Source of the DNA: Hahella sp. KA22
GTDB lineage: Bacteria; Pseudomonadota; Gammaproteobacteria; Pseudomonadales; Oleiphilaceae
Direction of reading: 5' to 3'
NCBI RefSeq assembly: GCF_004135205.1
Contig: NZ_CP035490.1
Span: 4,135,644 to 4,199,643, forward strand
DNA: 64,000 nucleotides
Numbering within the stretch: position 1 is the first letter of the stretch; every line of letters starts with the position of its first letter. The position numbers and the translations under genes were made by a program. Positions 10,367 to 63,755 of this stretch are shown piece by piece. The notes beneath the pieces are model-generated. The model was not told where the DNA came from, did no database searches, and saw nothing but the letters and a program-made list of their open reading frames with translations.

Positions 10367-11860
10367 ATGTACGTAGGGGTGGATTGCGGGACTCAGGGAA
10401 CCAAGGTGGTGGTATTGGACCCGGAGCGAGAAACCATTCTGGGAGAGGGCTACTCGCCTCATGCGCTGATCAGCGACGCCCATGGCCGCCGCGAGCAGCA
10501 TCCCGACTGGTGGACGCAGGCCCTCGTCGACAGCTACCGGCAGGCGCTGGAGCGCTCCGGCGTCGACAGTCGTCGTATTCGCGCCATCGGCGTATCCGGA
10601 CAGCAGCATGGATTGGTCGTGCTGGACCGTCATGGTGAGGTGATTCGTCCGGCGAAGTTATGGTGCGATACGGAAACCGCGCCGCAGAACGCGGTATTGC
10701 TAGAGCAGATGGGCGGAGAGCAAGGCTCTCTCGAACTGCTGGGACTGACCCTCGCCACCGGCTACACCCTCTCCAAGCTGCTCTGGCTGCGTCAACATGA
10801 AGCCGACGCCTTTCAACGCATCGCCCATATTTTGCTGCCTCACGACTACCTCAACTACTGGCTGACCGGCGAGATCGCCGCCGAATATGGCGACAGCTCG
10901 GGGACCGGGTATTTCGATATCCGTACTCGACGCTGGGTCCCGCAAGCCCTCGAACTTATCGCCCCCGATAGACGCCTGGCCAGCGCCCTGCCGCCATTGC
11001 TGCAGGCGCAGCAGCCCGTAGGCAGGGTCAGCCCCGCCATCGCCCGCTTGCTGGGCCTGTCGGATAACGTGTTGGTGGCCAGCGGAGGCGGCGACAACAT
11101 GATGGGCGCCATTGGCACAGGCAATATAGATGAAGCCGTGGTGACCCTCAGCCTGGGCACTTCCGGCGCGCTTTACGCTCATTCAAACCAGCCGCCAAAA
11201 CAAGGACACCCATCCCTGGCGGCGTTCTGCTCCTCCAGCGACGGCTGGCTGCCCCTGATATGCACCATGAATCTGACGGCGGTGGTTAACCAGGTTCGAG
11301 GTCTGTTCGGCTACGACCTGGACCGCTTCAACCAGGAAGCGGCGCAAGCGCCCATCGGCGCACAGGGCGTCACCCTGCTGCCGTTCCTCAATGGCGAACG
11401 CGTGCCGCCGCTTCCCGATGCGACAGGCAGCTTATTGGGTCTGAATATGCAGAACCTGCACCCCGCCAATGTTTGCCGCGCGGCGCTGGAAGGCGTCACC
11501 TTTGGGCTGCGTTACGGCCTGGACCTTTTGCGGACTTCCGGCATCCATTGCCAGGAAATCAGATTGATCGGCGGCGGCTCGAAAAGCCGGTTATGGCGTC
11601 AAATGGTGGCGGACATGATGAACGCCCGCGTCATTTGCCCCCAGGTTGGCGAGAGTGCGGCACTGGGCGGAGCGATTCAGGCGGCCTGGTGTGATGCGCA
11701 CGCCCAGGGCGACGGCATCCGTCTGCATGACCTGTGCCGGCGCTTTGTAAAACTGGATGAAGACGCCGCCGTATCGCCAACGCAAGACGCCGTGGAGGAA
11801 TACGAAAACGCTTATAAGTTGTACAGAACAAGACTGATGGAGATGCATCCTATCGCTTAG
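10367..11860 (+). CDS. xylB: Xylulokinase (FGGY family)
   Basis: A 497-aa cytoplasmic sugar kinase of the FGGY family. It phosphorylates D-xylulose with ATP to xylulose 5-phosphate for the pentose phosphate pathway. Visible features: the N-terminal phosphate loop VGVDCGTQGTKVVVLD, GVSGQQHGLV, the family motif region LPHDYLNYWLTG, the second ATP-site loop LSLGTSGALYA and the C-terminal adenosine motif IGGGSKSRLWRQMVADM. The start at 10367 follows GAGGAG by eight bases; upstream in-frame codons run into repeat DNA. No xylose isomerase or transporter is next to it, so related pentulose or pentitol substrates remain possible. Confidence 0.9.
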   Translation: MYVGVDCGTQGTKVVVLDPERETILGEGYSPHALISDAHGRREQHPDWWTQALVDSYRQALERSGVDSRRIRAIGVSGQQHGLVVLDRHGEVIRPAKLWCDTETAPQNAVLLEQMGGEQGSLELLGLTLATGYTLSKLLWLRQHEADAFQRIAHILLPHDYLNYWLTGEIAAEYGDSSGTGYFDIRTRRWVPQALELIAPDRRLASALPPLLQAQQPVGRVSPAIARLLGLSDNVLVASGGGDNMMGAIGTGNIDEAVVTLSLGTSGALYAHSNQPPKQGHPSLAAFCSSSDGWLPLICTMNLTAVVNQVRGLFGYDLDRFNQEAAQAPIGAQGVTLLPFLNGERVPPLPDATGSLLGLNMQNLHPANVCRAALEGVTFGLRYGLDLLRTSGIHCQEIRLIGGGSKSRLWRQMVADMMNARVICPQVGESAALGGAIQAAWCDAHAQGDGIRLHDLCRRFVKLDEDAAVSPTQDAVEEYENAYKLYRTRLMEMHPIA

Positions 11861-11957
11861 CCAGCACCTCATTTGTACTTTAAGTTTCCTTTTTATCCAT
11901 CTGTTTATAAAGCAGTTATTTTCTGTCTTTCAATTGTCGACGGTTGATCATTCCGCT

Positions 11958-11999
11958 ATGCTTGCTCTTTCTTTCTCGCGAACTCGCGAAAGCAAGCAT
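11958..11999. repeat. 42-bp inverted repeat upstream of the recombinase
   Basis: ATGCTTGCT (11958-11966) pairs with AGCAAGCAT (11991-11999), with a further CTCGCG/CGCGAA-type inner pairing. It lies about 200 bp before the tyrosine recombinase gene and could be a recombination or regulatory site. No T-tract follows. Confidence 0.4.
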
Positions 12000-12059
12000 T
12001 GCCATCGGGGCGTTTAAGCCCGCTCAATCACCGGTCCCAAGCATGAATAAGGAGTATTT

Positions 12060-12104
12060 ATGCCATTTGATGAAAAATTGTACTTAAATCCTCGAGCCCT
12101 ATAG
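12060..12104 (+). other. Possible 14-codon ORF with strong ribosome site
   Basis: ATG at 12060 follows AAGGAG by five bases and encodes MPFDEKLYLNPRAL before TAG. It may be a leader peptide or the stump of a lost gene. The remainder of the gap 11861-12201 is A+T-rich with no other feature. Confidence 0.25.
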
Positions 12105-12201
12105 CACTTTTCTCTCATCCCAGGCTTTATACTAAACATTAAGTTTAAATCTTAAATTATTGTTTTTAAACACAAACAAAACATAGCAGTCACCCAAAAC
12201 C

Positions 12202-15918: not shown

Positions 15919-16260
15919 CTTCTGTTGATTTGCGCATCTTTCGACGTTAAACCTCACTCTAGGGCATAGCAAGCAGGCTCTGACTCGAACCCTTCCCAAA
16001 ACACCCATAATCTTCCACATTTGACGCATTTCAGGATGCTTCTCATATCCTGATATAAAGTTTCGGAATCTATCTTTCCCATATAAGCATCATAGGCCTC
16101 ATCGGAAATGGTTAACCATTCCTTTCTCTGGCCTATACATTAACCAACTGATCTTTATAGCAAACTTATTGTAGATTGCGGAGATGCCGGATAATCATAT
16201 TTTGCGGTTGTTACAGCCCCCGCATTTAAATGCGCGCAAATACAGGCGGGCTTCGCAGTT

Positions 16261-16406
16261 ATTAATATGGCAATGATATTGGCATGTTAATAACTAGGCG
16301 CATGGATGCGCCTGCGCGGCGGCTAGCCGCGGGAGACAGAACCTGACCTGTGCAGGCCCTGTCGTTGCAGACAAATAGAAGGAAGCTATTTGACTGCCTG
16401 ATTAAT
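16261..16406. repeat. 146-bp multi-hairpin element, copy 2
   Basis: Nearly identical to copy 1 over its whole length, with the same ATTAAT ends. Its right end joins directly to the T-tract of the katE terminator. Confidence 0.85.
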
Positions 16407-16436
16407 AAAAAAGCCAGCCCAAATACTGGGCTGGCT
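16406..16436 (-). terminator. Intrinsic terminator of the catalase gene
   Basis: AGCCAGCCC and GGGCTGGCT (9-bp perfect stem at 16412-16420 and 16428-16436) are followed on the minus strand by six T residues (16406-16411) and then by repeat copy 2. It lies 19 bp past the catalase stop codon. Confidence 0.85.
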
Positions 16437-16454: not shown

Positions 16455-18554
16455 CTATCCGTCTTCCCTGTCCCAATAACGCAGGGCTCTGGCGCTGGTC
16501 AGGAAGCGTTCTATATCCGCTTTTTTAGACAGGCTGAACATGGCCTGGTCGCATTCGCGGCCGTTTAGTAATTGTTCCACGGTCTCTTGCAGATTGCTGG
16601 AGTACGCGATGTATTTGCTGTGCCGGTACGCATCTTCGATGAAATGTCTGGCTGCTGGCGTCGTGGTGAACAGACTCCGTTGTTCGTCGCTGACTATCAC
16701 TACGACGACGTCGTATAAAGCTGAGGGGCCGCCTTCGTAGGTTTCGTCGCCGGTGATGACTTCGCCATCGCTTAATGTCGTTCCCTGGATGGCGGGGGTG
16801 ATCAAGTCGTAATCCGCGCCCTCTTTTTTAAGCAGACGTTTTAAGTTTTTCAGCAGCTTGTTATCTGCGCCGTTGGACAGAAATACGCCGAACGTGCGCC
16901 CAGCCAGGGTCGGCTGTGAGCTTTTATTGATACTCAACGCATCCGAGACAGGTAAGTCCATAATAGGTTTCCTGGCCGCCGGGGCCGGTTTAGGCATGTT
17001 ACTGATCCCTAATTTGTTGGCGACGTTTTTCGCCAGTCCCCGGTCAATATTAAGCAAGTGTGAGACCATTCTTTCCCGAATGTCGCTACGCTCCACCTTG
17101 CTTAATTCAAACACCAGGGCGTCAGCGATATGCGCCTGTTCGGCCTCGGTTTGACTACGGTAAAACTGATTGGCCTGGCTGTAGTGATCACTGAAGGTTT
17201 CGCTGCGTTGCCGGACTTTCTCCCCCGTCATCGGTTCAGAATAGCTGACGTAGCCCGTTTCGCTATCCTCGCGCGGCCCGCCCTGCTCGCCGCCCCAGCT
17301 ATTCGGCTCGTAATTGGCGCGCCCCGCGCGGTTGTGCATGGCCATATGGCCGTCCTGCATGAAGTTGTGCACCGGACATTTAGGCGCATTGATGGGGATG
17401 TGCGTGAAGTTGGGGCTACCCAGGCGTTTAAGTTGGGTGTCCAGATAAGAGAAATTGCGCCCCTGCAGCAGCGGATCGTTGCTTTGATCAATGCCGGGGA
17501 CCAGATTCTGGGTGCAGAAGGCGACCTGTTCCGTTTCCGCAAAGAAGTTATCGACCGCTTTGTTGAGCACCATTCTGCCGACGATTTTCACTGGAACCTG
17601 TTCCTCAGGGATCAGTTTGGTGGCGTCCAGCACGTCAAACTCGAATTTTTCCGCGAAGGCGTCGTCAAAGAGCTGAACGCCCAGTTCCCAGGTGGGATAG
17701 TCCCCTGACTGAATCGCATTCCACATATCGCGACGATGGTAATCGGGGTCGGCTCCGTTGATGCGCAGCGCCTCGTCCCAGGTCACGGACTGCATGCCCT
17801 GCGCCGGCTTCCAGTGAAACTTAACAAAGGTGGATTTGCCTGCGGCGTTAATAAAACGGAAGGTGTGCACGCCAAAGCCTTCCATAAAACGCAGGGATCG
17901 GGGAATGGTCCGGTCGGACATGATCCACATCACCATGTGCATGCTTTCCGGGGTCAGGGAAATAAAGTCCCAGAAATTATCATGGGCCGTTTGCGCCTGG
18001 GGGAAACCGCGGTCCGGCTCCGCCTTTGCGGCGTGAATCAAATCGGGGAACTTCATGGCGTCCTGTATGAAGAACACTGGAATATTGTTCCCCACCAAAT
18101 CCCAGTTGCCTTCCTGGGTATAAAACTTCACGGCGAAGCCGCGCACATCGCGGGCCAGATCGGCGGAGCCTTTGTTACCCGCCACCGTGGAGAAGCGTGC
18201 GAACACCGGCGTCTTACGCCCTTTGCGTTTGAACAGATCGGCGCAGGTCACGCCATCCAGGGTGTCCAGCGCCTCGAAGTAGCCGTGAGCGCCGAAGCCC
18301 CGCGCATGTACAACACGCTCGGGAATACGTTCATGATCAAAATGAAACAGCTTTTCCCGCAATTGCCGGTCTTCCAGCAAGCCTGGTCCGCGGGCGCCGG
18401 CGCGCAGAGAGTTTTGGTTGTCTGCAATGGGTGTCCCTTGAGGTGTCTTGAGCACAGGTGCGCTCCGGGATTCTTGATGCGTTTCTCCGCCCTTCCCTAC
18501 ATTTTCTTTGTAACTTTTACTTGTTTTAACGGATGTGGATTTTTTTGTCGCCAT
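16455..18554 (-). CDS. katE: Large-subunit catalase HPII
   Basis: A 699-aa clade-2 heme catalase that converts hydrogen peroxide to water and oxygen in the cytoplasm. The core has the catalytic histidine in [12 protein letters not shown] (H83), [16 protein letters not shown], and the heme-proximal region; the C-terminal 150 residues form the DJ-1/PfpI-like flavodoxin domain ([20 protein letters not shown]) that marks large HPII enzymes. The N-terminal 20 residues are Lys/Ser-rich. The start at 18554 has AGGAAA eight bases before it and is preferred over an ORF start 20 codons upstream. A strong terminator follows. Monocistronic; stationary-phase control is usual for the family but not visible here. 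Confidence 0.95.
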
Positions 18555-20586: not shown

Positions 20587-21615
20587 ATGACGTTGAAGTA
20601 TCTGTTGAAGCGTGTGAGCGTCCTGGCCGGCGCAGCTCTGTGTTCCCTGGCGGCCCAGGCGGCGACCACTGAATTGACCGTATATACCGCTATCGAAGCG
20701 GAAGATTTGAAGAAATACGCGGCGCGCTTCAACGAAGAGCATCCGGACATCAAAATCAACTGGGTGAGGGATTCCACCGGTATCATCACCGCCAAACTGC
20801 TGGCGGAAAAAGAAAACCCGCAGGCGGACGTCGTCTGGGGCCTGGCCGCCACCAGCCTGATGCTGCTTAACGACGAAGGCATGCTGCAATCCTACAAGCC
20901 CAAAGGCTATGACGCCCTCTCCCCTAAATTCCGCGATAACAATGCGGAGCCTGTATGGACCGGCATGGACGCCTGGATGGCGGCAGTGTGTTTCAACACC
21001 GTGGAAGCGGAGAAACTCAATCTGCCCAAGCCTACTTCCTGGAAAGACCTGACCAGGCCGGAATATCAGGGCCATATCATCATGCCTAACCCCAACTCCT
21101 CCGGCACAGGCTTCCTGGACGTGAGCAGCTGGCTGCAGATGTTCGGCGAGGAAAGAGGCTGGCAGTACATGAGCGACCTGCACCAGAACATCAGCCGCTA
21201 CACCCACTCCGGCTCCAAACCCTGTAAAATGGCCGCGGCCGGTGAAACCCCCATCGGCATCTCCTTCGCCTTCCGCGCTGCAAAATCCAAGAAAGACGGC
21301 GCGCCGCTGGACATTATCTTCCCCCAGGAAGGCCTGGGCTGGGACATGGAAGCCACCGCTATCGTGAAAGGCTCCAAGAAAATGGACGCCGCCCAAACCC
21401 TGGTGGACTGGACCGTCTCCCGCAAAGCCAATGAAACCTACAACGAAGGCTACGCCGTCGTCGCCATGCCCGGCGTCGCCAAACCGGTGCAGTACTTCCC
21501 GGAAAACGCCGAAGCCCTGATGATCGACAACAACTTCACCTGGGCCGCCGCCAACCGCGAACGCATCCTGGCGGAATGGCAAAAACGCTTCGACGGCAAG
21601 AGCGAAGCCAAGTAA
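20587..21615 (+). CDS. phnS: AEP ABC transporter, substrate-binding protein
   Basis: A 342-aa periplasmic binding protein of the iron/AEP (FbpA-like) class with a signal peptide ending LAAQA|ATTE (about residue 23). It starts with TELTVYTAIEAEDLKKYAARF and contains the hinge and ligand segments PNPNSSGTGFLD and AMPGVAKPVQYFP. It delivers 2-aminoethylphosphonate to the permease/ATPase encoded downstream. AAGGAG stands eight bases before the ATG. A 1.18-kb repeat array separates it from phnT, odd for an operon. Confidence 0.9.
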   Translation: MTLKYLLKRVSVLAGAALCSLAAQAATTELTVYTAIEAEDLKKYAARFNEEHPDIKINWVRDSTGIITAKLLAEKENPQADVVWGLAATSLMLLNDEGMLQSYKPKGYDALSPKFRDNNAEPVWTGMDAWMAAVCFNTVEAEKLNLPKPTSWKDLTRPEYQGHIIMPNPNSSGTGFLDVSSWLQMFGEERGWQYMSDLHQNISRYTHSGSKPCKMAAAGETPIGISFAFRAAKSKKDGAPLDIIFPQEGLGWDMEATAIVKGSKKMDAAQTLVDWTVSRKANETYNEGYAVVAMPGVAKPVQYFPENAEALMIDNNFTWAAANRERILAEWQKRFDGKSEAK

Positions 21616-21629
21616 TCAGCGCTAACCGC

Positions 21630-22745
21630 GCTAACAGGACACCCACTTTAAACGCCCCTCGCATTCGTGCTGAGCTTGGGATTAAAAGTGGGTGCCCATT
21701 TAACATCGCCGTTCGTCCTGAGCCTGTCGAAGGGCGGCAGACAAACGCGGCCTAAAGTGGGTGTCCCTGTAATGGCCTTGATGATGACTGGACCATAAGA
21801 GCGCTTCGACAGGCTCAGCGCGAACGGATGTGATTGGGGTTAAAAGTGGGTGTCCGTTTAACACCGCCGTTCGTCCTGAGCCTGTCGAAGGGCGGCAGAC
21901 AAACGCGGCCTAAAGTGAGTGTCCCTGTAATGACCTTGATGATGACCGCAAGTTGTCAGGACACCCATAAGAGCGCTTCGACAAGCTCAGCGCGAACGGG
22001 TGAGCTTGGGATTAAAAGTGGGTGTCCGTTTAACACCGCCGTTCGTCCTGAGCTTGTCGAAGGGCGGCCGACAAACCCGGCCTAAAGTGGGTGTCCCTGT
22101 AATGACCTTTATGATGACTGGAAGCTATTAGGACACCCATAAGAGCGCTTCGACAGGCTCAGCGCGAACGGGTGTGTTTGAGGGTTAAAAGCGGGTGTCC
22201 GTTTAACACCGCCGTTCGTCCTGAGCCTGTCGAAGGGCGGCAAACAAACGCGGCCTAAAGTGGGTGTCCCTGTAATGACCTTGATGATGACCGGAAATTA
22301 GCAGGACACCCATAAGAGCGCTTCGACAAGCTCAGCGCGAACGGGTGGGTTTGGGATTGAGTTTTTAGGGATAAGCAGTTGTTTCGAGGGTGTGTTCTTA
22401 ACCGGACATCCAATTTAAAAGCTCACCTCGTTCGCGCTGAATTTAGGATTAAAAGCGGGGGTTTATTTAACACCACCGTTCGTCCTGAGCCTGTCGAAGG
22501 GCGGCAGACAAACGCGGCCTAAAGTGGGTGTCCATGTAATGACCTTGATGATGACCAGAAGTAATAAGGACACCCATAAGAGCGCTTCGACAAGCTCAGC
22601 GCGAACGGGTGTGTTTGAGGGTTAAAAGTGGGTGTCCCTGTAATGACCTTGATGATGACCGGAAGTAATCAGGCCCCCCATAAGAGTGCTTCGACAAGCT
22701 CAGCGCGAACGGGCGAGTTTGGGATTAAAAGTGGGTGTCCAGTTA
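21630..22745. repeat. 1.1-kb array of inverted and GTGGGTGTCC repeats
   Basis: Five imperfect units of about 170 bp (one longer, about 264 bp) fill most of the phnS-phnT gap. Each has GTTCGTCCTGAGCCTGTCGA (at 21711, 21869, 22041, 22213 and 22478), then GTGGGTGTCC, then ATGACCTTGATGATGA, then GGACACCCATAAGAGCGC followed by TTCGACAAGCTCAGCGCGAA. The two TTCGAC-type arms are inverted and can pair. The TCGACAGGCTCAG palindrome occurs in many bacterial genomes. I count 13 exact 10-mer-type cores here. A further single unit lies at 34786-34857. Confidence 0.85.
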
Positions 22746-22797
22746 GTTTCAGCGGACGCCGGTTAAATTTTGATAGACAGAACAAGAGTAATTAAAG

Positions 22798-23880
22798 ATG
22801 TCCAAGTCCCCCGCACCTTATCTGCAGTTGACCGATATCGATCAATACTTCGGTAATTTCCAGGCGCTGAGATCCGTTTCGCTGTCCGTGAATGAAGGTG
22901 AGTTCATCTGCTTTCTGGGACCTTCGGGCTGCGGTAAGACCAGTTTGCTGCGCATTATCGCTGGACTGGATGTCCTCAGTGCGGGTCAAGTGACGCAGGG
23001 CGGGCGGGACATCACTCATGCGCCGGTGAAAGCGCGGGATTTCGGCATCGTGTTTCAATCCTATGCCCTGTTTCCCAATTTATCTGTGGCGGATAACGTC
23101 GGTTATGGCCTGAAGTCTCAGGGCGTGAAAGCGGATGAGCGACGTCAGCGGGTGCGTGAGCTGCTCAGCGTAGTAGGCCTGGACGGCAGTGAAGATAAGT
23201 ACCCTTCGCAACTGTCCGGCGGACAACAACAACGGGTCGCCCTCGCGCGGGCGTTGGCCACTTCCCCGGGTTTATTGCTGCTTGATGAGCCCCTGTCTGC
23301 CCTGGACGCCCGTGTGCGTGCGCATTTGCGACAGGAGATCAAACAACTGCAGGCGCGGCTCGGCGTGACCACCATTATGGTCACCCATGATCAGGAGGAA
23401 GCGTTGACCATGGCGGACCGGATTGTGGTGATGAACCACGGCCGCATTGAACAGATCGGCTCCCCTCAGGATATCTATACCCATCCCCGCACGCCCTTTG
23501 TGGCGGAATTCGTGGGAGAGATGAATTTTCTACCAGGGCGCGTCGGCCCGAATCATTCACTACAGACGGGACCGGTGACGTTGCAGTGCGCCCGCGCTGC
23601 GGATATGTCGGAGTCCGCGCCGGTAAAAATCGCCGTGCGTCCCGAGGATATCCGTCTGCGTCTGAACGGCGATCGCCATAATGTACTGAGCGGCAGCGTG
23701 CTGGACATCCAGTTTCTTGGCTCCCGCGTGCGCTCGCGCCTCGCCCTGGACAGCCAGAACGCCGTATTGGTGGCGGATATTTCCATGAATGAGATGGCGG
23801 AGCTGGGATTGCGTCAGGGGCAGTCCGTGGAATTTCAACTGCCTCGTGATCGTCTGCGATTGTTTGCGGAGGCGTCATGA
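22798..23880 (+). CDS. phnT: AEP ABC transporter, ATP-binding protein
   Basis: A 360-aa ATPase: Walker A GPSGCGKTS (about 41-49), Q-loop, signature LSGGQQQRVALARAL (about 139-153), Walker B LLLLDEPLSALD, H-loop MVTHDQ, and a C-terminal TOBE-type regulatory domain about 245-355. It powers AEP import with the fused permease. The ribosome site is poor (only AAGAG about ten bases upstream). Its TGA overlaps the permease ATG (ATGA), indicating translational coupling. Confidence 0.9.
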   Translation: MSKSPAPYLQLTDIDQYFGNFQALRSVSLSVNEGEFICFLGPSGCGKTSLLRIIAGLDVLSAGQVTQGGRDITHAPVKARDFGIVFQSYALFPNLSVADNVGYGLKSQGVKADERRQRVRELLSVVGLDGSEDKYPSQLSGGQQQRVALARALATSPGLLLLDEPLSALDARVRAHLRQEIKQLQARLGVTTIMVTHDQEEALTMADRIVVMNHGRIEQIGSPQDIYTHPRTPFVAEFVGEMNFLPGRVGPNHSLQTGPVTLQCARAADMSESAPVKIAVRPEDIRLRLNGDRHNVLSGSVLDIQFLGSRVRSRLALDSQNAVLVADISMNEMAELGLRQGQSVEFQLPRDRLRLFAEAS

Positions 23881-25651: not shown

Positions 25652-26761
25652 ATGAACCAACCCAATTATTATCTGCTCACCCCCGGCCCGATCACCACTT
25701 CCCGCACGGTAAAAGAAGCCATGCTGACGGACTGGGGCTCCTGGGATCAGGACTTTAATCAGGTCACCCAGACGGTGCGGGATAAGTTGCTGGCCGTCGC
25801 CAATGCCCAGGACACCCATGTTTGCGTACCTTTGCAGGGCAGCGGCACTTTCGCCGTGGAAGCGACCCTGGGAACCCTGCTTGGTCCGCAGGATAAGCTA
25901 CTGGTGCTGATGAACGGCGCCTATGGACAACGCATCGCCAAAATCTGCGACTACCTCAAGCGCCCCTACGTCTGCATCGACACCGGCGACTACCTGCCTC
26001 CCGACCCGAACGCCGTGGCGGAATTGCTGCGTCAGGACGCCAGCATCACCGCTGTGGCGGTGGTGCATTGCGAGACCAGCTCGGGGATTTTGAATCCCGT
26101 TGAAGCCATCGCAGAAGTGGTCAACGCCGCCGGGCGCAAGTTGATTATCGACTCTATGAGCGCCTTTGGCGCCCTGCCCGCAGACGCAAAGCGACTGGGC
26201 TACGCTGCATTGATCTCCTCCGCCAACAAGTGCTTCGAAGGAGTTCCCGGCTTTGGCTTCGCGTTGATTCGCCAGGACTTGCTGGAGCTGGCCAAAGGCA
26301 ACGCTCACTCGCTGAGCATGGATCTGCATGACCAGTGGGCTTATATGGAAAAAACAGGACAATGGCGCTATACCCCGCCAACCCATACGGTAGCGGCGTT
26401 CGCCCAGGCGCTGCGGGAATATGAGGAAGAAGGCGACGCCCCCGGACGTCTGGCCCGCTATACCCGTAATCGCGACCAACTCGTCGCCGGTATGCGTCAA
26501 TTGGGTTTCCGTACACTGCTGGAAGAACGCTGGCTATCGCCGATCATCGTCACCTTTTTATCCCCTGACGATCCCAGCTTTGATTTCAAACGCTTCTATC
26601 AAGAACTGAAGCAGCGCGGCTTCGTGATCTATCCGGGCAAACTGACCCAGACCGAAAGCTTCCGCATCGGCTGCATCGGCAAAATCGACACGCCGGAAGT
26701 GGCGCGTCTGCTGCAAGCCGTCAAAGACACCCTTATCGCTATGGAGATTTCTCTGTCATGA
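25652..26761 (+). CDS. phnW: 2-aminoethylphosphonate-pyruvate transaminase
   Basis: A 369-aa PLP enzyme that converts AEP and pyruvate to phosphonoacetaldehyde and alanine. It begins [18 protein letters not shown]; the PLP lysine is K193 in [12 protein letters not shown], and D167 in IIDSMSAFG binds the cofactor ring. The start at 25652 has GAGGG seven bases upstream and is in frame with a much longer ORF running back through phnU in another frame, which is a shadow. The stop overlaps the phnX start. A GGACACCCA core lies inside the gene (25809). Confidence 0.95.
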
Positions 26762-28590: not shown

Positions 28591-29826
28591 ATGAGTACCA
28601 CAAATCGACATTTTGACGTCATTGTCATCGGCGCCGGCATCCTCGGATGCGCCAGCGCCGACTATTTAAGCGCGCAAGGACAGAAAGTCCTGTTGCTGGA
28701 TCGACGCGCGCCCGCCAGCGCCACCACCAGCCAGGCCGCCGCCTTGTTGGGACGCGCCCGCGGCGACGCCACCGGGCTGGAGATGGTCGACGAAACCTGG
28801 CGTGCGATTGAACGCCTGCAAACCAACTTGAAGGAAGACCTGGATCTGCGCGCCTGCGGCAGTCTGCACGCAGGCGTCAGCGCCGCCGCCAGCGCCAAAA
28901 TCCACACGCTGGCGGACGAAACGAGCAAACGGCGCCGCTCCGTCCGTTATCTGGACACCCATGATTTGCAGACGCGCCTCCCCTGGTTACAAGCGCCCAA
29001 GGACGTTGTGGCTGTCTTCGTCGCCGAAGACGGCTATATCGACCCCTATCAACTGGCCAGCGCGTACTTGCGTCATGCTCGTCGCTGCGGCGCCAGGTTA
29101 CAGCTCAATGCCGAGGTCGCGGAAATTCTGACGGACAGTCAAGGCGTCTGCGGCGTAAGGTGCGCTGATGGCGTCAGCTATTATTCTCGACAGCTTGTGC
29201 TGACGGGCGGTCCCTGGAGCGCGCTGCTATTGCGCCCTTTAGGACTGGCGCCCGCCATGGCGCCGGTGCGCAGTCAATATTGGATCTCCGCCCCGGACGC
29301 ACGCATCCAGCCGGATACGCCGGTCCTGGTGCTGCCGGACGCCAACGCCTATGCACGCCCGGAAGTTGGTGGACTGTTATTCGGACTGCGCGACCGCCAG
29401 CGTGTGCATTGTTCGCCCGAGCTGCTACCGGAGGACATCCATCGCTTCAGTTTTGATCAGGACAGCAATGGCCTCGCGTCGCTGGAAGACGGTTACGCGG
29501 GTCTTCAGCGTTGGCTGCCCATGTTGGACGAATTAAGGATCGCCGCCTATGTCAGCGGCGTATCCAGCTACACCCCGGACGGACATTTTCTGATCGGCTC
29601 CTTGGGAATCCCCGGTTTGTGGCTGGCGTCCGGATGCTGCGGCGGCGGTGTCGGGGCGTCTGGCGGTTTTGGACGTCTGATCGCCGAACTTATCAGTGGC
29701 GCCAAGCCCTTCACCAACGCCAGCCTGTATGACCCTAATCGTTTTGACGCCCACGACGTCAATCCATTCGATCCCGCCTTTCGACTGCGCTGCGCTCTAG
29801 CGCGTGAAGGCAAAGTATCAGGCTAA
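28591..29826 (+). CDS. FAD-dependent oxidoreductase (DAO family)
   Basis: A 411-aa flavoenzyme. N-terminal dinucleotide fold VIVIGAGILGCASADYLS (about 10-27) and the C-terminal FAD-binding stretch GLWLASGCCGGGVGASGGFG. DAO-family enzymes oxidise amines or D-amino acids. Flavoenzymes of this kind recur in phosphonate clusters and some oxidise AEP or N-methyl-AEP to phosphonoacetaldehyde, which phnX could then use; that role is inferred from position. AAGAAG precedes the ATG. Contains a GGACACCCA core read as Asp-Thr-His (28953). Confidence 0.85.
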   Translation: MSTTNRHFDVIVIGAGILGCASADYLSAQGQKVLLLDRRAPASATTSQAAALLGRARGDATGLEMVDETWRAIERLQTNLKEDLDLRACGSLHAGVSAAASAKIHTLADETSKRRRSVRYLDTHDLQTRLPWLQAPKDVVAVFVAEDGYIDPYQLASAYLRHARRCGARLQLNAEVAEILTDSQGVCGVRCADGVSYYSRQLVLTGGPWSALLLRPLGLAPAMAPVRSQYWISAPDARIQPDTPVLVLPDANAYARPEVGGLLFGLRDRQRVHCSPELLPEDIHRFSFDQDSNGLASLEDGYAGLQRWLPMLDELRIAAYVSGVSSYTPDGHFLIGSLGIPGLWLASGCCGGGVGASGGFGRLIAELISGAKPFTNASLYDPNRFDAHDVNPFDPAFRLRCALAREGKVSG

Positions 29827-29865: not shown

Positions 29866-30540
29866 ATGCCCTTAGCGCTTTTTGATCTCGATAACACCCT
29901 GCTCGCCGGCGACAGCGCGCAAGCTTTTTCCGAATTTCTCGCCGCCCGGGACGACATCGCCACGCCGCCCAATTTCCTGGAGCGCAACCAAGCCTTTATG
30001 GATGACTACGAAGCCGGGGCCCTGGATTTCAACGCCTACATGTCCTACACCCTGGCGCCCGTGGTGGGACTGCCGCCTGCGCAGCTGCAAGCGCTGATCC
30101 ACGCTTATCTGGACACCCACATTAACGCCATGATTCCCTCACGCGCCCGCGCTCTACTGGAAGAGCACCACCGCGCCGGCGACCCGGTCGTCATCGTTTC
30201 CGCCACCGGCGCGCACTTGGTGGAACCAATCGCCGCTCGCCTTGGCGTAGCCCATGTGCTGGCGGTGGACATTGAGACTCGGGACGGCGTCATCACTGGC
30301 GCCCTTATCGGGACACCCACTTTTAGAGAAGGCAAAGTCATCCGGGTGCAGGCATGGGCGGCCCAGCATGGCTGGGATTATCACAGCGCGGCCTTTTACA
30401 GCGACTCCCATAATGACCTGCCGCTGCTGGAGGCTGTCCGTCGCCCGGTGGCGGTTGATCCTGACCCCGTCCTGCGACGTATCGCCGCCGAGCGGAATTG
30501 GGAAATCCTATCGCTAAGAGATGAAAAGGCGCATTCATGA
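29866..30540 (+). CDS. HAD-IB hydrolase (SerB-like phosphatase)
   Basis: A 224-aa HAD phosphatase. Nucleophile motif LFDLDNTLLAGD (4-15), motif II VIVSATGAH, motif III lysine in FREGKVIRVQAW and motif IV YSDSHNDLPLLEA. Likely cleaves a phosphomonoester released in or near the AEP pathway; the substrate is unknown. Two GGACACCCA cores lie within the gene (30111, 30311) in different frames. Its stop overlaps the next start. Confidence 0.87.
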   Translation: MPLALFDLDNTLLAGDSAQAFSEFLAARDDIATPPNFLERNQAFMDDYEAGALDFNAYMSYTLAPVVGLPPAQLQALIHAYLDTHINAMIPSRARALLEEHHRAGDPVVIVSATGAHLVEPIAARLGVAHVLAVDIETRDGVITGALIGTPTFREGKVIRVQAWAAQHGWDYHSAAFYSDSHNDLPLLEAVRRPVAVDPDPVLRRIAAERNWEILSLRDEKAHS

Positions 30541-34782: not shown

Positions 34783-34785
34783 AGT

Positions 34786-43769: not shown

Positions 43770-43799
43770 GTGGGTGTCCGGTTACTAAAGTGGGTGTCC
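43770..43799 (+). repeat. Two direct GTGGGTGTCC copies
   Basis: GTGGGTGTCCGGTTAC at 43770 and GTGGGTGTCCTGATAAGCTC at 43790. The latter agrees over at least 20 bases with the copy at 42949, beyond the basic motif. Confidence 0.8.
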
Positions 43800-44281: not shown

Positions 44282-45181
44282 ATGTTTAGAAATAATGAAC
44301 AAAAAGCGCTTCCCTATCGTATGCTGGTCTTTCATGAGGTGGTGAAGTGCGGATCTTTTACCGGCGCCGCAGAGAGCTTGGGACATACCCGGTCAGGTAT
44401 CAGCACTTATATCAGCCAACTGGAAGCATTAGTCGGTACGAAGCTGCTGAGTCGTAGCACCCGGCGACTGCATCTGACGCCTGCGGGACGCCAGTTCGCA
44501 ATGCGCTGCGAACAAATGGCGGAAACACTGCAACTGGCGGTGGATGAGTTACAGGACTTTGAGCAGGAACCTCAGGGGCGGATCGCCATTACCGCTCCTC
44601 ACGCCTTTGAATCTCTACTCGTAGAGTCAGTGATAGCCGATTTGTGTCGGCAATATCCAAAGCTGATCGCTGATGTCACCTTCTCAGATCAGAAGCTTGA
44701 TCTGCTTGAGCATAAACTGGATATGGCGATCACAGTTGGCCCGCAGAAAGACAGCGACTATCACGCGCTAAAACTGGGTGTCCTGCGTTCGTTTCTGGTT
44801 GCTTCGCAAGCTTATCAGGACACCCATGGCAAGCCTGATCCTCAGCAGTTCCAAGACCACACCCTGATTCTGCTGCCCTGGCAGCACAAAGCGTCTCTGT
44901 TCAACAACGGCGAGCAGATTCCTTTACAGGCGGGTAAGACAATGCAGGTCAATACGCTGCCGGCGGCGATCAACTATGCCCGGCATGGATTAGGCTTGCT
45001 GCTGGCCCCCTCCATTTTCGTGGCGGACGCCATTGGTCGCGGCGAGTTGGAAAGAGTGGCCCCGGATTGGCAGGCGGAAGACAGAGACGTCTACGCCTTG
45101 CATACCCTTGGCAAGCGCCTTCCTTTCATTCTCAGGCAGGCGACGGAGCGGCTGAAGTGGAAGTTGGAGTCGTTGGGATAA
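44282..45181 (+). CDS. LysR-family regulator
   Basis: A 299-aa LysR-type regulator: HTH about 15-70 (EVVKCGSFTGAAESLGHTRS then ISTYISQLEALVGTKLL), effector domain 95-295. Divergent from the SnoaL-like gene and near an alpha/beta hydrolase, which may be its targets. Two copies of the GGACACCCA-type core (44774, 44817), in opposite orientations 43 bp apart, lie within the coding sequence. The ATG has no strong ribosome site. Confidence 0.85.
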   Translation: MFRNNEQKALPYRMLVFHEVVKCGSFTGAAESLGHTRSGISTYISQLEALVGTKLLSRSTRRLHLTPAGRQFAMRCEQMAETLQLAVDELQDFEQEPQGRIAITAPHAFESLLVESVIADLCRQYPKLIADVTFSDQKLDLLEHKLDMAITVGPQKDSDYHALKLGVLRSFLVASQAYQDTHGKPDPQQFQDHTLILLPWQHKASLFNNGEQIPLQAGKTMQVNTLPAAINYARHGLGLLLAPSIFVADAIGRGELERVAPDWQAEDRDVYALHTLGKRLPFILRQATERLKWKLESLG

Positions 45182-45209: not shown

Positions 45210-45325
45210 AGGACACCCACTTTTACCTCTTTAACGGCATATTGAGATTGAACGCACGGCCATTCCGTTTTCACTGCTTACCAGGACACCCATAATTTAT
45301 TATCGGTTGCTTACCAGGACACCCA
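45210..45325 (-). repeat. Three GTGGGTGTCC copies before the M23 protease gene
   Basis: GGACACCCA at 45211, 45283 and 45317; two are preceded by TTACCA. All in one orientation. The rest of 45182-45590 holds only promoter-type DNA. Confidence 0.75.
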
Positions 45326-50487: not shown

Positions 50488-50816
50488 GCTCTGTCTTTCA
50501 TTGGCGCGCTAACCCGGAGATGTGTCTTTTCCGCCCTATCCGCCGCGGACAGAATAAAGTATATGCCTTCACACTTCCAAGGGGAAAGTCATGCGCCGTC
50601 AATTGTAAGGTTTACAACCCGCTTGGAAAAAATGCCTTCAGAATCCGGGCGCTACGCCTTGATTTAATGGTTCCCCCGCCCTCATGACCCGTGCGTTGTT
50701 GAAATGTAGCCATGGCAAGAAAATTGCGGCGCTTATGAGGACACCCATCGCAGTGCAGGTTCAACGTTCTGGATCTGCGCCGCCCAAACGGATATCAGAA
50801 AACGGAAACATTCACT
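50488..50816. other. Intergenic stretch with one GGACACCCA copy
   Basis: This 329-bp gap shows no credible gene. It contains GGACACCCA at 50739 (preceded by CTTATGA), about 70 bp before the DJ-1-type gene. Confidence 0.5.
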
Positions 50817-51353
50817 ATGAATATCAATGAAGCAAAGGTTCTTATCATCGCCACCCACGGATTTGAACAATCCGAACTGGAAGTTCCACGGGACCGCCTG
50901 CGCGACGCGGGCGTCACGGTCCACGTGGCCTCTTTGGAAGCCGGGCGCATTCGGGGGTGGAGCGGAAAAGATTGGGGGGAGGAAGCCCCCGTGGACAAGA
51001 CCGTGCAAGACGTGGAGGTAGAGGACTACCACGCCCTGGTGTTGCCCGGAGGGCAGATCAACCCTGACTTGCTGCGGGTGGAGAAGACAGTGATTGACCT
51101 GATCCATAAATTCAACATCGCTGAAAAGCCTATCGCCGCCATCTGCCACGGCCCCTGGCTGCTGATCGAAGCCCAGATCGTCCGCGGCATTCGCGCCACC
51201 TCTTACAAGTCCATCATCACCGACATGAAAAACGCCGGCGCGGAATGGGTGGACGACGCCACCGTGCGCGACCGCAATATCATCACCGCCCGCCACCCAG
51301 GCGACCTCGACGCCTTTGTCAGCGCCGTCAAGGACGCTCTCGCCGCACTTTAA
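50817..51353 (+). CDS. DJ-1/PfpI-family protein
   Basis: A 178-aa protein of the class I glutamine-amidotransferase-like fold (PfpI/YhbO type): VLIIATHGFEQSELEVPRD, LVLPGGQINPD and the nucleophile C110 in AAICHGPWLLIEA with the following His (H111). Members act as proteases, deglycases or chaperones in stress. First of a run of stress-type genes up to 57 kb. Confidence 0.85.
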   Translation: MNINEAKVLIIATHGFEQSELEVPRDRLRDAGVTVHVASLEAGRIRGWSGKDWGEEAPVDKTVQDVEVEDYHALVLPGGQINPDLLRVEKTVIDLIHKFNIAEKPIAAICHGPWLLIEAQIVRGIRATSYKSIITDMKNAGAEWVDDATVRDRNIITARHPGDLDAFVSAVKDALAAL

Positions 51354-51392: not shown

Positions 51393-52217
51393 ATGCAGGA
51401 ACAGACTATCCGGTCATCATCGCCATTTTCGCGCGCCATTGTACATCGCGACCAATACCGGGCCCTGCATAGCCGCAACCTGTGGGCTCACTTTATGAAC
51501 ATGGCCCTGGCGCTCTGGCTCGTCTGCTCGCCAGCGCTGCGGGACTATAGCGAACCCGGCATGATATACAGCGATGTGATCGCGGGGGCGGTATTGCTGG
51601 TCTTCGCCGGGCTATCCCTGTCCTGGCGTTATAGCTGGGCGCGCTGGGTTTGCGCTGTAGTGGGGTTGTGGCTGATGTCGGCGCCGCTGCTATTCTGGAC
51701 ACCCAATGCAGCCGCTTATTTGAACGACACACTGGCCGGCATACTGGTTATCGGCTTCGCCATTGCATTACCGCCCTCTCCTGGCGTTTCCTCAAGAGCG
51801 GAGCTGGATGAAACCAACATTCCGCCAGGGTGGGATTTCAACCCCTCCAGCTGGTTTCAACGCCTGCCGATTATCGCCCTGGCGATGGTTGGCCTGCTGA
51901 TCTCGACGTATCTGTGCGCATACCAGTTAGAGCATATTCCCGAAGTGTGGGACCCATTCTTCACCGGCTCTCGCACTGATCCCCAAAACGGCGCGGAGGA
52001 AATCATCACTTCGTATGTGTCCGAAGCCTGGCCGGTTCCCGACGCCGGCGTGGGCGCGTTAACCTATGCGCTGGAAATCCTGTCCGGGCTGGTGGGATCG
52101 CACAAACGCTGGCGCACCATGCCCTGGCTGGTGGCGCTGTTCGGATTCATGATTGTGCCTCTGGGCATTGTCTCCATCACCTTCATCATTATTCAGCCTA
52201 TCTTGCTGGAAACCTGA
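51393..52217 (+). CDS. SPW-repeat / VKOR membrane protein, N-terminal part up to in-frame TGA
   Basis: A 274-codon ORF with about six to seven membrane helices: SPW-type repeats (about 25-135: NLWAHFMNMALALWLVCSPAL, WVCAVVGLWLMSAPLLFW) followed by a vitamin K epoxide reductase (VKOR)-like part with PVPDAGVGALTYALEILSGL and FGFMIVPLGIVSITFI. It stops at TGA (52215-52217), exactly where family members carry Trp before the CxxC redox motif; the same frame continues with CALC. AAGGAA lies eight bases before the ATG. Without the next part the protein lacks its disulfide centre. It may be a pseudogene, or TGA may be read through or a sequencing error. Confidence 0.7.
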   Translation: MQEQTIRSSSPFSRAIVHRDQYRALHSRNLWAHFMNMALALWLVCSPALRDYSEPGMIYSDVIAGAVLLVFAGLSLSWRYSWARWVCAVVGLWLMSAPLLFWTPNAAAYLNDTLAGILVIGFAIALPPSPGVSSRAELDETNIPPGWDFNPSSWFQRLPIIALAMVGLLISTYLCAYQLEHIPEVWDPFFTGSRTDPQNGAEEIITSYVSEAWPVPDAGVGALTYALEILSGLVGSHKRWRTMPWLVALFGFMIVPLGIVSITFIIIQPILLET

Positions 52218-52796: not shown

Positions 52797-53021
52797 CTAT
52801 TTACGCCGCCAACGCCCGTCCCGCTTCACATATTTCTCTTTGACGGCAGACCATGCCACCCGACGCGCTGTTTCATCCCGCGAGGCGTCGCCGCGGCGGT
52901 CTTCGGGATCTCGATACTGATCCCAGGCATGATTGAACGCGGCCAGAAAGATTTCCTGCGCGTGCTTGGGCAGGACATGAGAGACATTGTTGGGCAGTTC
53001 GCTGAGGCGGTCATAAGGCAT
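52797..53021 (-). CDS. chaB: ChaB-family protein
   Basis: A 74-aa protein typical of ChaB: LPNNVSHVLPKHAQEIFLAAFNHAWDQY (core helix pair, shown in parts), then VAWSAVKEKYVKRDGRW. ChaB proteins are small partners of the ChaA cation exchanger and appear in many stress loci. AAGGAGG lies nine bases before the ATG. Confidence 0.85.
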   Translation of the reverse strand: MPYDRLSELPNNVSHVLPKHAQEIFLAAFNHAWDQYRDPEDRRGDASRDETARRVAWSAVKEKYVKRDGRWRRK

Positions 53022-53149
53022 TCTCCATCCCTCCTTGTGAGCATTTCCCGGCTGGTCTCACAGATGACGCCAGCCGTCCGCCTCTTTCACAAATCAAAAT
53101 TCAGGCCAGCTTATCCCAGCCGGTGTGCAAGTCGACCGAGTCGTCTTAT

Positions 53150-53386
53150 CAGGACACCCATCTTAACCTCATGGACTCAAGCCGCCTTATATCGCCTTAC
53201 ATGGACACCCACCCGTTCATCAATGTATTTCGATGCGATTCGAATCTGGACGCTATATGGACACCCATTGTTTTATCCAGACACCCACCGCAGCCCTGTC
53301 CTTATGCGGACACCCACAACAACGCCCCACTGCCTCCACGCCGAGGTCTTACCAAGACACCCACTTTAGATTACCAGGACACCCAC
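53150..53386 (-). repeat. Seven-copy GTGGGTGTCC cluster
   Basis: Seven copies of GGACACCCA(C/T) or near variants start at about 53152, 53203, 53259, 53279, 53308, 53355 and 53376, all in one orientation, 20 to 56 bp apart. Five have the exact nine-base core, two have AGACACCCAC. Spacers share no sequence. The surrounding gap 53022-53535 has no gene with a ribosome site. Confidence 0.85.
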
Positions 53387-61699: not shown

Positions 61700-61865
61700 A
61701 GACCTTTTGTGTAAGTAATGCCTCGGAATCAGCAGGCGTCTCTCGCCGCCTTGCTAAAAGGGAAGTCCAGGAGTGACAGGGTTCAAGCTAACCTGGAATC
61801 ACCTCCGCATAAATGCTGAAGACTGAACTAACACCTCTTGGGGGCGGCCCAGCCCCCGTTTTTAT
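61700..61865 (+). ncRNA. Candidate small RNA ending in an intrinsic terminator
   Basis: A plus-strand terminator (GGGGGC at about 61840-61845, GCCCCC at about 61852-61857, then GTTTTT) has no plus-strand gene before it: the nearest, at 59997-60953, has its own hairpin and the gene between is on the other strand. Before it lies a second hairpin, GGAGTGACAGG with CCTGGAATCACCTCC (61770-61806). No ORF of note. I see no clear promoter. Element copy 5 begins in its T-tract. Confidence 0.4.
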
Positions 61866-61994
61866 TAATCAGGCAGACAAATAGCTTCCTTCTATTTGTC
61901 TGCAACGACAGGGCCTGCACAGGTCTGGCCTTGTCGCCGCGCAGGCGCGTCCATGCGCCTGGTGATTAACATGCCAATATCATTGCCATGTTAA
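61864..61994. repeat. Multi-hairpin element, copy 5 (inverted, internally deleted)
   Basis: Inverted relative to the other copies and about 131 bp, missing about 14 bases between the GCGGC stem and CAGGGCC stem so that those two hairpins are damaged. The ends ATTAATCAGGCAGAC and CATGTTAAC remain. Its ATTAAT end joins the T-tract of the terminator at 61838-61863. Confidence 0.85.
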
Positions 61995-62071
61995 CAATCT
62001 CCACAAACTGGTATCCGCCAACTGAAGAAAGCCGCACAGTTGGAGCCTCTTAGATCGCCCTATCAACGCCT

Positions 62072-62656
62072 TCAACGTTGGACTTTCGATACAATCCCAC
62101 GCTTTCGGTTCAGCCGTCTGTAGCTATCCAAACGATAAGGGTTCGCCTCCCGATAGGCGTCCAACGGCGCCAACATGGTCCCACCGCGATTCAAGGCGTT
62201 GTCGATAACCTCAACAATGCGCCGGTTCGGCCAGGGCTTGCAGGTGATCTTTAGCAACTCGTTAAAAGCGTCGTCTTCCCGGCCCGCCCCATGTATTAAC
62301 GCCAAAGCGCCGTACCCTATGGCTGTGGAGCGGCTCACGCCGGCATGGCAGTGGATGACCAGGCGGTTTTCGGAGCTCTCAAGAATCGCCTGCAGGGTGT
62401 TCAGGACGTCGCTGATCACCGCGTCAAAGTGGTGAGTGGCTTCCGCTCTCTCCTGGTCAAATATTCTTATGACGTGATGCGCTTCCACATGAGCGACCAG
62501 CTTGGGTATCGCCTGTTCGCTGATATCAGGATCAAGCAGAGAAATAACGTGTGTCGCCTGCCAGGCTTTCGCCAACGCTTCCACACGGTATAAACATGAA
62601 ATTTGCAACGGCCAGACAGAATCGGTAGTGGTCACAACAATATCCTTATTGGTCAT
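62072..62656 (-). CDS. Protein-tyrosine / dual-specificity phosphatase
   Basis: A 194-aa cysteine phosphatase with the signature HCHAGVSRST (102-111; nucleophile C103, R109) and an aspartate-containing loop before it (DPDISEQAI). Such enzymes hydrolyse phosphotyrosine or other phosphate esters. Its 3' side faces element copy 5; no partner kinase is adjacent. Confidence 0.85.
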   Translation of the reverse strand: MTNKDIVVTTTDSVWPLQISCLYRVEALAKAWQATHVISLLDPDISEQAIPKLVAHVEAHHVIRIFDQERAEATHHFDAVISDVLNTLQAILESSENRLVIHCHAGVSRSTAIGYGALALIHGAGREDDAFNELLKITCKPWPNRRIVEVIDNALNRGGTMLAPLDAYREANPYRLDSYRRLNRKRGIVSKVQR

Positions 62657-62743
62657 GGGCTTGATTGCGCCAGAGCCTACCAGCCGCAGCAGAAGCTTGA
62701 CAACCTCTGCGTCCAGCCGGACCGACCGGACGCAGACTTGTTT

Positions 62744-63718
62744 TTATACCGACAACAATACCGCCCCGACAGTCTGCCCGCTTTGCAGCAAAGTATGGGC
62801 CTGGGAGGCCTGCTCCAAGGGAATTTTATCCGCGATATCCACGGTCAGTCCATTCGCCAGTTGCTCCATGACCGCATTGCCGCTGATCCGGTAATGGTGT
62901 AGATCCGCCATATGCAGCAGCACGCTGGGGCGGGTGAATTGAATCGCTCGCGCCATGGTTTCCATCGGCAGACTCTGCAACATGCCAGAGGGCTGCCCAA
63001 TGCCGGCGACTGTACCAAAGGCCCCGGCGCTCGCCAGACTTTTCGCCAGTGTGTCCGCGCCAACGCCGTCGATAACGTAGTCTACGCCAGCGCCGTCAGT
63101 GAGCCTCTGCACGGCTTCAGCAAAGTCCTGCTCGCGATACAGAATCACGTCGTCGTAGCCTTTACAGCGGGCGATCTCAGCCTTTTCCGCACTCCCTACG
63201 GTCCCGATCAGTCTCACGCCGAGTTTGCTCGCCCACTGACCCAATACCTGCCCCAGCCCACCTGCGGCAGCGTGAACCAGCATCGACTCGCCAGCCGCGA
63301 CGGGTCTAACCCGGTTCAATAGCATGTGAGCGGTCATTCCCCGCAATAGTGCAGACGCCGCCGCTTCATCAGAGACTGAGTCTGGAACGGGTAATAATCT
63401 CTCCGCCGCAACATTACGATGACTGGCGTAACTTCCTAACGGAAAGCCGGCATAGGCGACGCGTTGGCCAAGACTCAACTCTGTCACGCCATCTCCCAAC
63501 GCTTCAATCACACCTACCGCCTCAACGCCCAATACGCGGGGCTCATCGGTGATGGGATAAAGTCCGCAACGGAAGTAGATGTCCACGAAGTTCACTCCCA
63601 CCATACTGTGACGGAGGCGCACTTCTCCCGGAGCTGGAGGCGATAGTTGAAAGGTCGCTGGCCGTAATACGGACGGCTCGCCAATTTGGGACATTTCTAT
63701 ACGGATAGGCGTACTCAT
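62744..63718 (-). CDS. Quinone oxidoreductase (zinc-free MDR family)
   Basis: A 324-aa NADPH:quinone-reductase-type MDR protein: N-terminal GroES-like domain with RHSMVGVNFVDIYFRCG, VLGVEAVGVIEALGDGV, and a Rossmann domain with VHAAAGGLGQVLGQWASKLG. No zinc-ligand cysteines. The ATG at 63718 has AAGGAG seven bases upstream; the ORF start seven codons earlier is not supported. Divergent from a LysR gene, which may control it. Confidence 0.9.
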   Translation of the reverse strand: MSTPIRIEMSQIGEPSVLRPATFQLSPPAPGEVRLRHSMVGVNFVDIYFRCGLYPITDEPRVLGVEAVGVIEALGDGVTELSLGQRVAYAGFPLGSYASHRNVAAERLLPVPDSVSDEAAASALLRGMTAHMLLNRVRPVAAGESMLVHAAAGGLGQVLGQWASKLGVRLIGTVGSAEKAEIARCKGYDDVILYREQDFAEAVQRLTDGAGVDYVIDGVGADTLAKSLASAGAFGTVAGIGQPSGMLQSLPMETMARAIQFTRPSVLLHMADLHHYRISGNAVMEQLANGLTVDIADKIPLEQASQAHTLLQSGQTVGAVLLSV

Positions 63719-63745
63719 TCTGAACTCCTTAGTGCTCATACTGTA

Positions 63746-63755
63746 GTGGGTGTCC
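63746..63755 (+). repeat. GTGGGTGTCC copy in the divergent qor-lysR gap
   Basis: GTGGGTGTCCTGTTAGC, the only exact copy in the last 10 kb of the window, lies 28 bp before the quinone reductase start. Confidence 0.75.

Follow-up and report, generated by a model that had tools for sequence, protein, structure and literature searches.

Why should a nine-base sequence recur some fifty times within a few tens of kilobases of a bacterial chromosome, inside genes as well as between them? The question is raised by a 64,000-nucleotide stretch of Hahella sp. KA22 (NZ_CP035490.1, positions 4,135,644 to 4,199,643; hereafter the window, whose numbering is used throughout), in which copies of TGGGTGTCC surround a gene at 41861-42847 on the minus strand that encodes a 328-aa repetitive extragenic palindromic (REP)-associated tyrosine transposase (RAYT). 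Counting both strands, the window contains 51 exact copies of this core between positions 11204 and 63755, whereas 100 dinucleotide shuffles average 0.37 copies and never exceed 3, in agreement with a preliminary description of the sequence, which had counted about fifty where about one half was expected and which does not mention the RAYT gene. We conclude that TGGGTGTCC is probably the core of an approximately 20-bp motif recognized by the RAYT, WANNNTGGGTGTCCTGNTAA, whose local sites would have been gained and held by selection or by biased copying.

The excess is real but regional. The whole 6.96-Mb genome (G000, a single contig) contains 107 copies, 51 of them in the window; the 56 in the other 6.9 Mb are close to the 48 that a backwards-pattern control gives for the whole genome. 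In seven 20-kb stretches to either side of the window there are 2 copies in total, and a 400-kb control sequence from the same genome holds 2 exact cores, both with poor flanks. As copies outside the window are near chance level, the excess is regional and not genome-wide. The cluster extends from around 11 to 53 kb of the window, with a single outlier at 63.7 kb, reaching ~31 kb on the 3' side of the RAYT gene and ~11 kb on the 5' side, and 13 of the 51 copies are concentrated in a tandem array at 21.6-22.75 kb. The preliminary description had likened the sequence to DNA uptake sequences and other genome-organizing motifs. Such a role would suit an excess that is independent of strand and occurs in several frames, and a gradual build-up by mutation and uptake bias has been argued for uptake sequences (in the portion of PMC1939737 available). 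With the motif confined to tens of kilobases around the RAYT gene, we reject a genome-wide role on the whole-genome count and consider it scarcely credible; outside the region the count is, in effect, the near-expectation value that the description itself had named as contrary evidence. A lone TGGGTGTCCTGGTAA lies far from the cluster, at ~6.50 Mb in G000 and ~6.69 Mb in the related genome G001, in similar surrounding sequence (L067 9757, L068 9295).

The protein at the centre of the cluster carries HFH and YVDLNP. Across 45 aligned sequences H73, H75, Y185, N189 and P190 are invariant, corresponding to an HUH motif and a catalytic tyrosine in Y-x3-NP. Using an AlphaFold2 model (pLDDT 84.7), the top Foldseek match, and the sole one below 0.001, is 4er8, the structure of a RAYT in complex with a REP hairpin (E 9.2e-4; TM-score 0.56 by target and 0.30 by query), and the matches after it, at E >0.03, are mostly IS200/IS605 transposases. 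A sequence search of the PDB returned nothing up to E 1, and PADLOC and PHROG gave no match to defence or phage families. From its length and model fit, the protein apparently belongs to TnpA-Y1 subclass 2.3. The KA22 genome has one full-length copy plus three weak, short and distant matches at C1:5929610-5937193 (L232-L234; 36-40% identity over ~65-75 residues), and G015, from another genus, has six full-length copies in the stretches fetched. In further genomes three to four RAYT copies lie close together (L061 8819-19767; L094 5368-10996; L120 5881-12274), which points to local gene duplication.

Does the motif go with this gene? Counts of TGGGTGTCCNNNTAA in 58 genomes (G000 and 57 relatives) gave 33 in G000, 33 in G001, 18 in G002 and 29 in G005, nearly all in one cluster each, and 0, 1 and 1 in the same-genus genomes G003, G004 and G006. 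Of the other six members of the genus, three carry a cluster syntenic with the window, and in all four Hahella-group genomes (G000, G001, G002, G005) the cluster spans ~40 kb around the RAYT gene. Smaller clusters are found elsewhere in G015 and G016, which belong to other genera. When open reading frames (ORFs) of at least 80 aa were compared, the RAYT gene was the one gene in every main cluster of these six genomes, with 55-60% identity between genera; the other sharing consisted of an 80-residue stretch in G016 and Hahella and of weakly similar ABC ATPases, neither common to all.

A wider set was gathered by protein-alignment scan alone, giving 78 loci from the best 80 of at least 581 stretches that encode a relative, nearly all gammaproteobacterial and one from Hahella. 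An unbiased ranking of 9-mers by the number of loci with at least three copies is led by GTGGGTGTC (20 loci), TGGGTGTCC and TGGGTGTCT (19 each) and ATGGGTGTC (17). The shorter TGGGTGTC occurs 285 times in these loci, where 27.8 copies are expected and the backwards control gives 37, and 44 of the 78 have at least three. The excess falls off over several kilobases from the RAYT gene, as profiled in the 33 loci other than the Hahella locus L069 that have 10-kb flanks on both sides. After homologue matches shorter than 280 residues were dropped, 97 homologues plus the window were available for a flank count, in which TGNNTGTC[CT] pointing away from the gene was sought 40-150 bp upstream and 100-330 bp downstream. 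Among testable cases, 79 of 97 have an outward copy upstream, 72 of 90 have one downstream and 57 of 89 have both, compared with 5 upstream and 1 downstream in the opposite orientation; not all rows are independent, as some are near-identical copies from one neighbourhood. The middle letters of the core vary, GG being used in most and AC and CC, e.g., in Pseudoalteromonas, and the variants cluster on the protein tree (FastTree, 79 labelled rows): 16 changes against a shuffled mean of 23.0, with 0 of 200 shuffles as low, and for AC 2 changes against a mean of 8.7, with 0 of 500 as low. Motif clusters occur together with the RAYT family, and outward copies flank the gene in most relatives examined. 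Beside a RAYT relative in Bacterioplanes (L105), 11 kb contains 24 copies of CTCCGGTAA and 21 of CATTACCGG, possibly another repeat family.

What, then, is the repeated unit? Its full form, WANNNTGGGTGTCCTGNTAA, comes from the 38 sites outside the tandem block (21600-22800, whose 13 sites were left out of the consensus and conservation counts). Upstream of the core, position -5 is A or T in 36 of the 38 and -4 is A in 28; downstream, T at +12 (32), A at +13 (30) and A at +14 (27) make a TAA-like end, which supports the extended intergenic form noted in the preliminary description. Position +11 is almost unconstrained, and past the unit little information remains. By itself the unit is not a hairpin: the three single copies tested fold at -0.1 to -0.3 kcal/mol, no better than shuffles, while two paired stretches do form hairpins. 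Single copies lack the GT[AG]G head plus hairpin of REPs, and where REPs are extragenic and dispersed genome-wide, this motif is regional with 14 of its 51 copies in genes. Four inward pairs have a 43-bp spacing; three of them belong to the array and the fourth lies within a LysR gene. Such pairs resemble REPINs, and these units may be mobile. The spacing of copies shows no helical phasing (p ~0.46 for same-orientation, 0.14 for inward and 0.64 for outward neighbours).

The motif copies and the RAYT gene map to the window as follows (position, strand, description).
11204-11212, minus: in an FGGY (xylB-like) kinase gene; same place in G001, G002 and G005
17434-17442, plus: in katE; conserved SYLDTQ, may be partly coincidental
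18428-18436, plus: in katE; probably due to chance, with weak flanks and no copy at this place in G001 or G005
21637-22740, both strands: tandem array of 13 copies with three inward pairs 43 bp apart; first part 21637-, 21758+, 21847+, 21959-, 22019+, 22088+, 22131-; remainder 22261+, 22304-, 22525+, 22568-, 22629+, 22732+
25810-25818, minus: in a phnW-like aminotransferase gene; no gap against two motif-less orthologues
28953-28961, minus: in an FAD (DAO) oxidoreductase gene
30111-30119, minus: first copy in the HAD gene
30311-30319, minus: second copy in the HAD gene
31059-31067, plus: close to the end of a phnZ-like gene
31238-31246, plus: intergenic; flanks 7/7
33059-33067, minus: intergenic; flanks 7/7
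34598-34606, plus: intergenic; probable partner of 34787
34787-34795, minus: intergenic; probable partner of 34598
34995-35003, plus: intergenic; flanks 7/7
35062-35070, plus: intergenic
35095-35103, plus: intergenic; flanks 7/7
38770-38778, plus: in corA; 0 of 19 outgroups with the motif
39284-39292, minus: intergenic; flanks 7/7
39326-39334, minus: intergenic
39616-39624, minus: touching the first base of the F5/8-type C gene, scored outside genes
40133-40141, minus: in the F5/8-type C / CBM gene
41803-41811, plus: 3' of the RAYT gene, in a non-canonical downstream orientation or distance
41861-42847, minus: RAYT / TnpA_REP-like HUH transposase gene, 328 aa; HFH at 73-75, Y185-x3-N189-P190
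42930-42938, minus: copy forming a hairpin with an 11-bp stem with 42950
42950-42958, plus: outward-pointing copy upstream of the RAYT gene, in the canonical flanking place
43771-43779, plus: intergenic
43791-43799, plus: intergenic; flanks 7/7
44775-44783, plus: in the LysR gene, first member of the inward pair with 43-bp spacing
44818-44826, minus: in the LysR gene, second of the inward pair
45211-45219, minus: intergenic
45284-45292, minus: intergenic; flanks 7/7
45317-45325, minus: intergenic; inexact at the same place in G001, G002 and G005
50739-50747, minus: at the 3' end of ORF 50733-51296
51697-51705, minus: in the SPW/VKOR gene
53152-53385, minus: five copies (53152, 53203, 53259, 53308, 53377), four in a doubtful ORF
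63747-63755, plus: lone copy outside the cluster, shared in position with G001 and G005

Two further repeats accompany these copies. Over 21671-22745, the units of the array are mostly ~172 bp apart and combine motif pairs with the repeat GCGCTTCGACAAGCTCAGCGCGAACGG and its inverse. The other, 150 bp long and containing a GACAGGGCCTG...CAGGCCCTGTC palindrome, is interspersed through the window at 9969-10118, 16259-16408, 34635-34784, 37184-37333 and, inverted, at ~61845-62003, its plus-strand copies being 93-99% identical to the first. One copy sits between the motifs at 34598 and 34787; in G001 the motifs that probably correspond to these two are spaced 43 bp.

How did copies come to lie inside genes? 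By the gene list 18 are in ORFs; with the four in the doubtful ORF 52929-53369 left out of the in-gene counts, 14 remain in 11 genes, on both strands and in several frames. Resampling the codons with the proteins fixed yields 2.15 copies on average and never more than 6 in 500 trials, and shuffled codon order yields a mean of 0.33 and a maximum of 3 in 300. These figures bear on the suggestion that chance or protein-level constraint is at work, the peptides (D-T-H, G-T-P, etc.) being functional and the DNA merely following. D-T-H or D-T-Q is indeed read by 7 of the 14 copies, and the proteins as they stand would account for the 2.15 copies of the resampling, but none of the 500 resamplings approached 14, the host proteins are unrelated and read in several frames, the intergenic core is conserved too, and wobble positions of the core are conserved beyond those of the same codons elsewhere (see below). 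We regard this suggestion as very improbable.

Outgroup sequences were available for 10 of the 14 in-gene sites (all but 11204, 40133, 50739 and 51697). At the phnW, both HAD, the phnZ and both LysR sites, G004 and G006 are motif-less and their alignments gapless, with the phnZ alignment ending with the motif core. All 19 corA outgroups are gapless and read E-D-[LI] (one E-H-I) where Hahella reads E-D-T. The FAD enzyme site is gapless in 9 of 10 outgroups, in a poorly conserved region, and both katE sites are gapless in all outgroup alignments, although, owing to conservation of the peptide, the core of the first is also present in 2 of 10 outgroups. When Hahella genomes are compared, one-base differences create or destroy the core at 30111 and at G001 positions 9794 and 35876. 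Gapless alignment to mostly motif-less outgroup sequence shows that the tested in-gene copies arose by substitution in existing codons and not by insertion.

This result weighs on the idea of ordinary REP/REPIN-like transposition, in which the RAYT inserted all copies as units, preferentially nearby, and those in genes were tolerated. Local accumulation of REPs near rayt genes has been published (as given in the part of PMC2817692 available), the tandem array and the inward pairs look copied, and several RAYT copies lie close together in other genomes, all of which such transposition would explain. On the other hand, 9 of the 10 tested in-gene sites are gapless in all outgroups and the FAD site in 9 of 10, nearly all of them motif-less; information stops at the motif, with +11 nearly free inside it, unlike the copies of one element; and the intragenic REPs described in PMC3733652, in the portion available, are insertions, more than half coding for 20-30 residues. 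Pure insertion is rejected for the tested in-gene copies by the gapless alignments, and transposition as the source of all copies is improbable. Repeated insertion, which the preliminary description had entertained, hence fails for these copies, and whole-unit insertion in orthologues, which it had named as contrary evidence, is not seen at them; insertion may hold for intergenic copies.

The core is also conserved as DNA. Of the 114 possible site-by-genome pairs (38 sites, three genomes), 85 were alignable across the site. Of the 14 in-gene copies, 13 have a counterpart in the same position in one or more of the other Hahella-group genomes. In the 39 in-gene pairs 6 of 351 core positions differ, against 13% in the flanks, and in the 46 intergenic pairs 13 of 414, against 18-20%; the free position +11 differs in 16 of the 46 intergenic pairs and the conserved intergenic TAA part at 11 of 138 positions. 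At wobble positions of the in-gene core, 5 of 117 differ, where identical codons at other places in the region, in the same genome pairs, would predict 24.4, with 0 of 20,000 simulations as low, and a cruder test with a wider motif definition gave 21 of 192 against 287 of 1193; the p-values are approximate because the comparator genomes share ancestry. To judge from these comparisons, the in-gene core is kept more strictly than its codons require. The earlier interpretation accordingly stands as to independence of strand and frame and as to selection on DNA rather than on protein, wobble positions included, and gives way as to a genome-wide role.

Such strong conservation could also reflect a host function, in which a domesticated RAYT serves as a local DNA-binding protein whose sites regulate or organize phosphonate, transport and stress genes; synteny in four genomes and the single full-length RAYT gene also speak for this. 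Yet the copies lie in and between unrelated genes on both strands and at spacings that follow no helical phase, and apart from the weak ABC ATPases and the 80-residue G016 stretch the G015 and G016 clusters share only the RAYT gene, so that there is no common host gene set. A host function is possible but, in our view, unlikely. The data show gain by substitution and constraint, for which selection for a host role would be the main rival to enzyme-driven biased copying or linkage.

We favour the explanation that the RAYT recognizes the motif as a signal marking the end of its gene; the flanking architecture is observed, and binding is presumed from it. The HUH nuclease would recognize, and perhaps nick, motif sites, mostly near its own gene, and nicking would leave a 3' end able to prime synthesis, as described for this enzyme class (PMC8266576, in the part available). 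Near-gene sequences resembling the motif could be converted to it, or favoured through linkage, and then held, whether by selection or by biased copying in favour of enzyme-recognized sequences linked to its gene. The enzyme appears to shape its own genomic neighbourhood. Why the in-gene copies are kept is something we infer. A more specific version, possible though less likely than not and offered tentatively, is that the HUH transposase writes its motif into the neighbourhood without inserting DNA: near-matches within tens of kilobases, codons included, would be converted and kept, in a local, cis-limited molecular drive in which holding would come from enzyme-dependent biased copying or from selection through linkage to the transposase gene.

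Several observations weigh against recognition of the motif by the RAYT or against its spread into codons. On the protein side, the NCBIfam NF047646 match (E 3e-10) scores 40 bits against an 80-bit cutoff, the window protein has no Pfam match, a G016 relative scoring 20.8 for PF01797 against a cutoff of 23, and no binding or cleavage data for the subclass were found in the literature examined. RAYT relatives 50-58% identical, some of them partial, are present in G003, G004 and G006 with 0-6 copies of TGGGTGTC per stretch fetched; 34 of the 78 loci have fewer than three copies, some using variants and some being short contigs; the canonical downstream outward copy is absent in the window and the three other Hahella-group genomes; and the GA variant shows no clustering on the tree (8 changes, mean 7.8). 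Conservation within genes is limited to the core: 9 of the 14 copies match at least 5 of 7 flank positions, the TAA part differs at 16 of 117 positions, no better than the flanks, and both katE sites are weak evidence. In the 77 other loci the motif occurs 19 times in ORFs and 217 times outside (backwards control 9 and 5); being almost wholly intergenic there, its accumulation in genes is so far a feature of Hahella only.

If recognition holds, the motif is a candidate DNA partner, of simple sequence, for a RAYT subclass reported without any. It is also linked to a transposase and, within host genes, is constrained as DNA and was gained through substitutions, not insertions, in the copies compared. 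This bears on how REP-like sequences spread and on whether RAYTs serve the host or themselves, and the ~50 mapped sites around one gene make Hahella strains a direct test system.

How does this compare with known systems? The accessible portion of Quentin et al. 2018 (PMC6006769) describes TnpA-Y1 subclass 2.3 as having a median length of 325 aa, core insertions and a gammaproteobacterial spread, and the protein studied here agrees in its 328 aa, its HUH plus Y-x3-NP and its long stretches within and after the core. That portion reports no REP-like sequences for subclasses 2.1 and 2.3 by automatic (hairpin model) or manual search, whereas here a linear motif flanks most genes examined. Nunvar et al. 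2010 (PMC2817692), in the part available, found REPs piled up near rayt genes in regions of up to 200 kb in three marine gammaproteobacteria and one betaproteobacterium, Thauera; our repeats are likewise concentrated near a RAYT gene, but those REPs are inverted and palindromic, and Hahella does not appear in the main text of that paper. TIRtrons (TIRYT; Di Nocera et al. 2013, PMC3733652, in the portion available) comprise a Y1 transposase gene with inverted short repeats, some with extra genomic copies, and most examples are subclass 2.1 according to the same portion of PMC6006769. The arrangement recalls the one here, where outward copies stand on both sides of the gene in the 57 cases noted above, but in the window and the other Hahella-group genomes the upstream copy alone is canonical. 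The TIRtron motif is a different one; its consensus, GGGGWSAS, and TGGGTGTC have 6 of 8 positions in common, a lead rather than a test, and the available description of TIRtrons includes neither gain by substitution inside genes nor wobble conservation. In the open-licence PMC literature, the motif letters with 'tyrosine transposase' retrieved no paper, the letters alone retrieved, among the matches listed, titles that all look unrelated, and Hahella with repeat or REP terms retrieved nothing relevant among the matches listed. That repeats accumulate near rayt genes was known from 2010, and that inverted repeats can flank RAYT-like genes, as in TIRtrons, from 2013; new here are a motif for the RAYT subclass to which the protein apparently belongs and in-gene copies gained by substitution and kept as DNA. 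In the latter respect the motif resembles DNA uptake sequences, which, in the available part of PMC1939737, are short motifs that accumulate gradually and not as inserted elements. Unlike those, which are genome-wide and tied to competence, it is regional and tied to a transposase gene, and we propose that its build-up may be a local, cis-limited equivalent of the drive by which uptake sequences accumulate.

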